A stretch of DNA of 64,000 bases from an uncultured Ectothiorhodospiraceae bacterium (GTDB lineage: Bacteria; Pseudomonadota; Gammaproteobacteria; UBA6429; Thiohalophilaceae): NCBI GenBank assembly GCA_947259575.1, contig CAMYMU010000025.1:62001-126000 (forward strand), read 5' to 3'. The notes under the pieces were generated by a model, which was not told where the DNA came from, searched no databases, and saw nothing but the letters and a program-made list of their open reading frames with translations. Shown here piece after piece: positions 41,019 through 42,717 of this stretch. Made by a program: the position numbers and the translations under genes. Position 1 is the stretch's first letter. Each line of letters starts with the position of its first letter.

Positions 41019-41196
41019 AAGTAAATAATAAACCACCAGAGCCGGAAAGCATACCTGAAAGCTTACCCCTCAGGCCCGGAAAGTCGGGACTAAATTCCGC
41101 CCTATTTTTTTATTTGTTAACCCAGCCGTGGGAGCTGGTTCGTATATATACCGAAGACGAGATAAACAACAACGACACACAATTGGAGAACACAAA

Positions 41197-41340
41197 ATGA
41201 AAAATTTGACACGTAAATTAGCTGCTGTAGCCGCAACCATGGCAACAATGATGTATGCAACCGGTGCACAAGCCGCTTGTTACTACCAGAGCTACTGGGA
41301 TGCGTACGGTAACTGGGTCACCTACTGGCAGTGTTACTAA
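41197..41340 (+). CDS. exported 21-residue Tyr/Trp-rich Cys-flanked peptide precursor
   Basis: This 47-residue ORF has GGAG eight bases before its ATG, a typical Sec signal peptide (MKNLTRK then a hydrophobic stretch ending GAQA at residue 26) and a predicted mature peptide of 21 residues beginning ACYYQSYWDAY and ending TYWQCY. Nine of the 21 residues are aromatic (six Tyr, three Trp). The only two cysteines are at positions 28 and 46, second and penultimate in the mature peptide, well placed for a ring-closing disulfide. It has its own terminator. I recognise no family. No transporter, protease or immunity gene is adjacent, although the ccm thiol-oxidation operon is convergent. Confidence 0.75.
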   Translation: MKNLTRKLAAVAATMATMMYATGAQAACYYQSYWDAYGNWVTYWQCY

Positions 41341-41374
41341 GCTGCACTCCTCAGGAGAGCAGGTAAACTCAAAA

Positions 41375-41404
41375 GGCGCTCAACAGACGTTGGGCGTTTT
41401 TTTG
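41375..41404 (+). terminator. rho-independent terminator of the small peptide gene
   Basis: GCGCTCAAC and GTTGGGCG pair (one G-T wobble) around AGAC and are followed by seven T. It lies 34 bases after the peptide stop codon. Confidence 0.85.
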
Positions 41405-41424
41405 CTTGTGGGTAGAGTCGATGT

Positions 41425-42717
41425 CTATCGAGTTATCATTATGGTGACAGGTTCGGAGCCGGTGACCTGAACAGGGCCTATTTTAGTTTCTATATCACCT
41501 GCTTGCTTTATCGCCCGAGTTGATTTGGTGATACGTGCAATAATGTTTACCTGCTGTTCACCGGACAATTTATTCATCGGGCTTAATGAAAGACTGTCAT
41601 TTAGAGTCACGGTCATGGGTAAGTCTTTTACCTGAGCTTTGTCATACATCGCCAATGGCATTTTCATGCCTTCAACGCGTTGTGCATAGATCATAACAAT
41701 ATCGGTGTCAGAAACGCTTGCGCGTAATGTAGGATCGATGCTTACCTGGACTTTGATACTGGCAGTAGCACTTGCAGTGGGGGCTAATGGTGAAGGCTCC
41801 GGTGGAGATGCCTGTAATGGTGTCTGGGCTGCTGAGCTAGCAAGTTGACGCTCTGCATTATCGATAAGCGTCTGTACCTCATGGCTTGATTGAGGACTAC
41901 CAGCAACCAGTGGTAATAGTTTTTTCCACAGGCTGAGTGCTGAGGTGAGATCGCCATTATCCCGATAACCAAGACCTGTTAGCCATAAGGCGGTTGGGTT
42001 TTCAGGTGCAATTTCTAGTGCCCGTTTAGCCAGTTCAAACGGTTCTCCACGCATATCGCCATTACGTGACATGGTCAGTGCGTCAGCCATGCCAAGCAAC
42101 ACTTCGGCTTGATCGCCTACAAGTGTATGTAATTGTCGGAAGGCCTCAGCCGCTTTACTGTATTGCTGCTGTACCATGTAGGTTCTGGCCAGAGTGTACC
42201 AGCCATCTGGGTTATTAGGGTTTTGTTGTAGCTTAGTTTCCAGTCTTGCCAGGACCTCTTCCATGCTGCCGGCATGTTTCTGTTGGTCTTGTTCTGTCTG
42301 TGTTTGCGCGGCATGTGGATTGCTTGCTTGCGTGCTGGCGGTATCGACGCTTGCAGAAATAGCCTTGGGTTCTCCCCAGTATTGATAGAGCCCAAAGGCA
42401 ACAAATGGGATCGCTGTTAATAGGATAAAAATATTTCGTTTGTACTGATTGGGGAGTTCAGAGCGAGTGCTTTCTTCAGTTACTGTATCTTCAAGTAAAG
42501 CCAGTTCGATTTCGTCGCGAGATTGATCATACTGTTGTTGTGTAATCTCATTTTGTTTTAACTGGTTTTCAAGTTCAGCGAGTTTTTCGCGGGCGATGAC
42601 AATATTGGTTTGTTTGGTAGTGTCAACAATCTGTTTCTGTTGACTCAACAACGCCGGTGCGATTAACCACATGACCAGGACAAGCAAGGCGATCGACAAA
42701 AGTATAAAACCAATCAT
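41425..42717 (-). CDS. ccmI: cytochrome c maturation protein CcmI
   Basis: This 430-residue protein has two N-terminal membrane helices (about 3-22 and 95-113), a cytoplasmic leucine-zipper-like loop between them, TPR repeats (about 150-280) and a C-terminal beta domain with SIKVQVSIDPTLRASVS. CcmI binds apocytochrome c and hands it to CcmF/CcmH. It is the last gene of the ccm operon; its ATG overlaps the ccmH stop. Confidence 0.92.
   Translation of the reverse strand: MIGFILLSIALLVLVMWLIAPALLSQQKQIVDTTKQTNIVIAREKLAELENQLKQNEITQQQYDQSRDEIELALLEDTVTEESTRSELPNQYKRNIFILLTAIPFVAFGLYQYWGEPKAISASVDTASTQASNPHAAQTQTEQDQQKHAGSMEEVLARLETKLQQNPNNPDGWYTLARTYMVQQQYSKAAEAFRQLHTLVGDQAEVLLGMADALTMSRNGDMRGEPFELAKRALEIAPENPTALWLTGLGYRDNGDLTSALSLWKKLLPLVAGSPQSSHEVQTLIDNAERQLASSAAQTPLQASPPEPSPLAPTASATASIKVQVSIDPTLRASVSDTDIVMIYAQRVEGMKMPLAMYDKAQVKDLPMTVTLNDSLSLSPMNKLSGEQQVNIIARITKSTRAIKQAGDIETKIGPVQVTGSEPVTIMITR

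Follow-up and report, generated by a model that had tools for sequence, protein, structure and literature searches.

Short periplasmic and hairpin peptides described to date

MgrB is a protein of 47 amino acids with two periplasmic cysteines, in which a C-terminal Trp and the residues Asp, Phe, and Gly are needed for the inhibition of the sensor kinase PhoQ (PMC8404706), and thanatin, a hairpin of 21 residues closed by one disulfide, is able to block a periplasmic assembly protein (PMC11395501). Here, we describe a small gene in a 64,000-nucleotide stretch of DNA (the window) from an uncultured Ectothiorhodospiraceae bacterium. Its 47-residue product very probably gives rise to an exported peptide of 21 residues, a disulfide-closed hairpin rich in Tyr and Trp.

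Like MgrB, the product has 47 residues, with its first periplasmic Cys at residue 28 and a pair of cysteines, both of which are functionally required in MgrB, and it has Asp, an aromatic residue, Gly, and a C-terminal aromatic residue within one small periplasmic segment. However, MgrB is membrane anchored, with cysteines at positions 28 and 39 and 10 residues between them, whereas 17 residues lie between the cysteines of the window peptide, whose AxA-type signal is predicted to be removed. With this Cys spacing, a weak hydrophobic core followed by an AxA site, and no Pfam match, the peptide does not belong with the MgrB proteins. Its resemblance to thanatin lies in the length of 21 residues, the beta-hairpin, the single (here putative) disulfide, and the compact turn. 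Thanatin is a cationic insect peptide with cysteines 11 and 18 near the turn, whereas the window peptide is bacterial, has a Cys at both ends, and is acidic, which sets it apart from thanatin-like cationic hairpins and their net positive charge. LytA239-252, a choline-binding hairpin, is also a short aromatic beta-hairpin that folds alone (PMC4471590), but it has no disulfide and is part of a repeat array. The window peptide matched no profile of choline-binding or YD (RHS) repeats, and only one copy was found in the genome. Designed trpzip peptides have cross-strand aromatic pairs of the kind expected here at non-hydrogen-bonded sites (W8/W14 and Y4/W18), but the window peptide is natural, has a different turn and probably a disulfide, and varies among Trp, Tyr, and Thr at position 8 in its relatives. 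The trpzip-type W8/W14 pair is expected from the equal strand lengths in the AlphaFold2 (AF2) model; the copy in genome G455 has Thr8.

The small gene and its predicted hairpin product

The open reading frame at 41197-41340 is a real, unusual small gene. It begins with ATG at 41197, ends with TAA at 41338-41340, and encodes MKNLTRKLAAVAATMATMMYATGAQA followed by ACYYQSYWDAYGNWVTYWQCY. With codon statistics trained on the 39 long open reading frames of the window, the 47-codon frame has a log-odds score of +8.9 bits, compared to 12.4 +/- 5.7 for pieces of real genes of equal length; only 0.16% of pieces taken from real genes in a wrong frame score this high, and the remaining five frames at the locus score between -18 and -52. 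A preliminary description of this DNA had noted a strong ribosome-binding site and a T-run terminator, and both are borne out: the GGAG core at 41185-41188 lies 8 nt 5' of the ATG, and a 3' hairpin at 41371-41402 with a run of seven T residues (41397-41403) folds as RNA into a 14-bp stem, a structure that a simple terminator scan had left unlisted. A search of the surroundings gave no sigma-70-like promoter. The gene has no companion: its neighbors, ubiE on one side and ccmI/cycH on the other, are both encoded on the minus strand. A role as a leader peptide was ruled out because the gene is equipped with a separate terminator and the gene that follows is oriented towards it. A regulatory RNA is likewise unsupported, as Rfam gave no match for the locus and its whole RNA folds no better than shuffled sequences (z = -0.65).

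Coordinates of the small gene, its expression signals, and predicted product features in the window
Feature	Position	Strand	Basis
Shine-Dalgarno sequence TTGGAGA	41183..41189	+	Sequence, mRNA fold
47-codon gene, including TAA	41197..41340	+	Sequence and codon statistics
Predicted Sec signal peptide MKNLTRKLAAVAATMATMMYATGAQA	41197..41274	+	Sequence inspection, hydropathy, low-confidence AF2 region
Predicted mature 21-mer ACYYQSYWDAYGNWVTYWQCY	41275..41337	+	Sequence, composition
Predicted beta-strand 1, residues 28-34 (CYYQSYW)	41278..41298	+	AF2 DSSP E28-34
Predicted turn DAYGN, residues 35-39	41299..41313	+	AF2 loop between strands
Predicted beta-strand 2, residues 40-46 (WVTYWQC)	41314..41334	+	AF2 DSSP E40-46
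Intrinsic terminator, 14-bp stem, AGAC loop, 7 T	41371..41403	+	Sequence, RNA fold

Sequence inspection and hydropathy agree with the Sec signal peptide proposed earlier. The layout is of the AxA type, with K2, R6, and K7 in the n-region, a weak and short hydrophobic core at about residues 8 to 20, and an AQA cleavage site, with cleavage after AQA-26 assigned by eye from the AxA rule. Q-A-A-C is not a lipobox, and a lipoprotein was hence ruled out. Nor does the product have the layout of a class II microcin, as its leader is of the AxA Sec type and not of the double-glycine type and no exporter adjoins the gene. The composition given for the mature part was correct: it has six Tyr, three Trp, and two Cys (positions 2 and 20) and an aromatic fraction of 0.43. 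Its calculated pI is 4.05, with a net charge of -1 and one Asp as the sole charged residue, and it contains no Lys, Arg, His, Met, or Glu. With ubiE and ccmI as the neighbors, it also holds that no dedicated exporter or immunity gene adjoins the gene, and no gene for a modifying enzyme (RiPP, radical-SAM cyclophane, or lasso) does so.

AF2 run on the single sequence predicted a confident beta-hairpin that places the two cysteines at the ends of facing strands. The mean pLDDT was 94 for residues 31 to 40, 85 for residues 41 to 47, and about 57 for the signal region, with values of at least 90 at 13 residues. The strands are of equal length around D-A-Y-G-N, with Asp at position i and Gly at i+3, and the turn therefore fits a 3:5 type I turn with a G1 bulge. 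The strand alternation of such hairpins is known, for example from ubiquitin, and by this rule the facing non-hydrogen-bonded pairs implied are C2-C20, Y4-W18, S6-T16, and W8-W14. Disulfides and Trp pairs are favored at such sites, and from this geometry we infer a Cys2-Cys20 disulfide. The disulfide-closed cycle proposed in the preliminary description is thus supported insofar as the predicted fold unites both cysteines, and it is refined here to a beta-hairpin with a probable disulfide. A Foldseek search against the PDB returned only generic hairpins (SSB, SH3, and similar), with a best E value of 4.0.

Relatives in Rhodobacteraceae and a conserved face

The 47-residue product matched no family in Pfam, NCBIfam, or PHROGs at an E value of 10 or below, in line with the earlier statement that it belongs to no known family, and no PDB sequence matched it. 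No relative was found in plasmids and phages by tblastn or over GTDB and IMG/VR with an 8-mer back-translation, and looser DNA patterns in IMG/VR gave matches that were out of frame or not exported. A phmmer search with the 47-mer of about 57 to 58 related genomes, including three congeners, and of 369 genomes of the class gave only out-of-frame or internal chance matches. A lack of conserved homologues had been named beforehand as evidence against the peptide. In this respect the outcome is mixed, as no homologue was found in the three congeners or in 33 further members of the family, but relatives exist in Rhodobacteraceae.

These relatives emerged from a degenerate scan for C-x5-W-D-x2-G-x-W-x5-C over about 85,000 GTDB species genomes, which gave 60 stretches, 33 of them in frame. 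Only one of the 60 lay in a short exported open reading frame, that of Alterinioella nitratireducens (Rhodobacteraceae; locus L072); the best other match (L097) was ruled out, as it lies in no signal-bearing short open reading frame. Pattern samples of the order, the phylum, and Alphaproteobacteria gave real candidates only in the window genome and Alterinioella. The tail pattern D-x-aromatic-G-x-W-x-T-x3-C-aromatic-stop was absent from some 780 other proteobacterial genomes (window genome and Alterinioella excepted) and from IMG/VR. Alterinioella encodes two tandem exported peptides of 60 to 69 amino acids. The first ends in MFKTVLTAAAFALIAAAAHASTGGALPDLAIMTATETAYYCEWVTVWDGWGNWVTVYECF-stop and, at the positions left free by the pattern, scores 4.6 standard deviations above the mean of the other pattern matches, and its paralogue directly downstream ends in YYCEWVTVYDYWGNWVTVYECW-stop. 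With this second paralogue as the query over 395 family genomes, a third relative, GYYCEWVTVTDYWGNWITVWQCF-stop, was found in the Rhodobacteraceae genome G455. This copy and the window peptide both have W-Q-C-aromatic-stop, and the window sequence played no part in finding it. It is situated at a contig edge (L111; G455:C37, about 244892-244960), which removes its N terminus, the upstream part, and any tandem neighbors; a NUDIX-like gene, read by eye, adjoins it.

All three Rhodobacteraceae peptides end in C-x5-[WYT]-D-x-W-G-N-W-[VI]-T-V-[YW]-[EQ]-C-[FW]-stop, and the window and Alterinioella peptides have in common a signal peptide and a single residue between the last Cys and the stop. In the C-terminal 20-residue hairpin, C, D, G, N, W, T, and C are invariant and positions 4, 11, 18, and 21 are aromatic; the search pattern itself dictated C2, W8, D9, G12, W14, and C20 and left the other shared residues free. 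The window peptide is identical to its relatives at 8 to 9 of 20 hairpin residues, of which the pattern accounts for up to six. From sequence comparison, either shared ancestry or convergence on one design may account for the likeness of the window and alphaproteobacterial peptides. AF2 predicted the same hairpin for the second Alterinioella paralogue, modeled alone and from its single sequence, with strands at residues 50 to 56 (Cys to Tyr) and 62 to 68 (Trp to Cys). In contrast to the window peptide, the Alterinioella peptides have a linker of about 20 to 30 residues, predicted to be helical, between signal and hairpin and are more acidic; the relatives have two to three acidic residues within the hairpin. 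Over the 22-codon tail, the tandem genes differ by four synonymous and three nonsynonymous codon changes, giving a dN/dS ratio of about 0.24 from few events.

Across the four peptides, 7 of the 8 even strand positions, which are the non-hydrogen-bonded sites of the hairpin, keep the same residue class, compared to 1 of the 6 odd positions (P = 0.016); with the pattern-imposed positions removed, the counts are 4 of 4 and 1 of 6 (Fisher P = 0.024). On this basis, a single conserved face is predicted, in which the disulfide is joined by the aromatic residues at 4 and 18, the Ser/Thr residues at 6 and 16, and Trp14. As only two distant lineages are known, few independent changes lie behind this analysis. 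In the relatives, mostly Glu or Val takes the place of the window peptide's Tyr3, Gln5, Tyr7, Tyr17, and Gln19. Much of the Tyr excess thus lacks conservation, and readings that depend on the full set of nine aromatic residues are weakened.

At the Alterinioella locus (L072, 7037-7494), identity between the paralogues is about 98% in the signal-peptide DNA (2 differences in the 75 nt of 25 codons) but about 78% in the tails, and the linkers in the middle are unequal in length, which suggests a recent duplication or a gene conversion of the 5' part. Just 5' of the first tandem gene, two near-identical palindromes, TTATCAGATAACAAACAC and TTATCCGATAACAAACAC, are found 21 bp apart (L072, 6977-7018). 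They look like a repressor operator, and no similar palindromes were found 5' of the window gene.

Possible functions

While the gene and the hairpin anatomy are well supported, a function can only be inferred. Our best explanation, which we put forward tentatively, is a small envelope peptide that binds one periplasmic or outer membrane partner through its aromatic face and tunes this partner, much as MgrB acts on PhoQ or thanatin on LptA. Sec export and oxidation by DsbA-type enzymes are established envelope biology. By this route, the prepeptide would be exported by Sec, signal peptidase I would presumably cut it to the 21-mer, and a DsbA-type enzyme would oxidize the 21-mer in the periplasm to form the putative Cys2-Cys20 disulfide. 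The 21-mer would then fold into a two-stranded beta-hairpin around the D-A-Y-G-N turn, in which the disulfide, pairs 4/18 and 6/16, and Trp14 would provide a rigid conserved face opposite a variable one, and the aromatic face together with the edge strand may bind and modulate one envelope partner. Binding to a single partner best accounts for a periplasmic edge-strand peptide that is acidic, rigid, and aromatic, and it is our judgment that regulation is to be preferred over attack, adhesion, or self-assembly. The gene statistics, the ribosome-binding site, the terminator, both AF2 hairpins, the relatives, the one-face constancy, and the dN/dS ratio all argue for the envelope-partner reading, for which MgrB is a precedent. 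On the other hand, the three gene neighborhoods indicate no partner: Alterinioella has a DUF2147 gene and a glutamine amidotransferase gene, probably hisH, next to the peptides, and no linked gene is common to the window (ubiE/ccmI), Alterinioella, and L111 loci. The gene is also absent from all congeners searched, an uncommon pattern if its product regulates a conserved envelope protein. The single-sequence basis of the AF2 models and the small number of lineages behind the face analysis count against this reading as well.

A rival reading is a released, narrow-target antibacterial hairpin, neutral to acidic and similar to thanatin or a BamA signal, that would attack the outer membrane assembly machinery of neighboring cells. 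We consider this unlikely, although thanatin, likewise a 21-residue one-disulfide hairpin, binds LptA/LptD (PMC11395501), and patchy distribution and tandem duplication are reminiscent of weapon genes. All four peptides end in Phe, Trp, or Tyr, which, placed behind a beta-strand, would imitate the strand end of an outer membrane protein. However, position -3 from the C terminus, where the outer membrane signal usually has a hydrophobic residue, is Gln or Glu. The mature part is acidic and has no Lys or Arg, and the surroundings contain neither an immunity gene nor an exporter that would carry the peptide across the outer membrane. The preliminary description had proposed, among other roles, an antimicrobial or a metal- or heme-binding peptide. 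A pI of about 4 and the lack of His and Met argue against a cationic antimicrobial as well as a heme or metal ligand, and metal or heme binding is weakened further by the predicted pairing of the cysteines. A redox or metal/heme peptide that works through a Tyr/Trp ladder or the Cys pair is extremely unlikely. The aromatic cluster next to the disulfide on one face and the adjoining cytochrome c maturation genes would suit it, but Glu and Lys are missing from the mature peptide as well, several Tyr residues are replaced by Glu or Val in the relatives, and the ccm neighborhood is not common to the loci.

With 43% aromatic residues, one charge in 21 residues, and strong strand propensity by AF2, uncharged aromatic hairpins could stack into fibers or coat the cell surface. 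Such self-assembly seems quite improbable, given the acidic hairpin residues and predicted helical stalk of the relatives and the lack of an adjoining repeat array or curli/Fap-type secretion genes. Very unlikely is a minimal carbohydrate- or choline-binding hairpin that sticks to cell wall or surface polymers like one choline-binding repeat: a single LytA hairpin folds alone and is aromatic rich in a similar style (PMC4471590), but Pfam cell wall-binding models were unmatched at an E value of 10 or below, and such repeats normally occur in arrays and without a disulfide. The locus might also be a young orphan open reading frame, or a small RNA that happens to contain a reading frame, with no peptide function under selection, as the gene is missing from the three congeners, two of which, with the ubiE flank read, have other genes upstream of ubiE, and a discrete terminator stands in a locus without an Rfam match. 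We regard this as distinctly unlikely, because the codon bias, ribosome-binding site, signal peptide, and design in common with the Alterinioella and G455 peptides speak against it, as does the RNA fold.

The peptide is outside Pfam, NCBIfam, and PHROGs, with relatives found here in two alphaproteobacteria only. Exported open reading frames of this size escape gene callers and family libraries, and to our knowledge very few natural 20-residue peptides fold alone. It is conceivable, though again tentative, that these peptides represent an undescribed class of Sec-exported, disulfide-closed aromatic hairpin minipeptides, scattered in Gram-negative bacteria, that control an envelope assembly or signaling protein of their own cell or of a neighbor. 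If true, a natural, gene-encoded stapled aromatic hairpin made through the usual Sec/Dsb pathway would represent a new regulator of the envelope, or a new weapon, and would offer a ready-made scaffold for producing hairpin peptides in bacteria.

The region upstream of ubiE differs among three species of the genus (window, 41037-41430; L014, 2260-3010; L015, 690-1480). In the congeners, it contains a lipoprotein-like gene of up to 149 amino acids (G003) or a DUF1456 gene (G002), and gene turnover may be frequent at this site.
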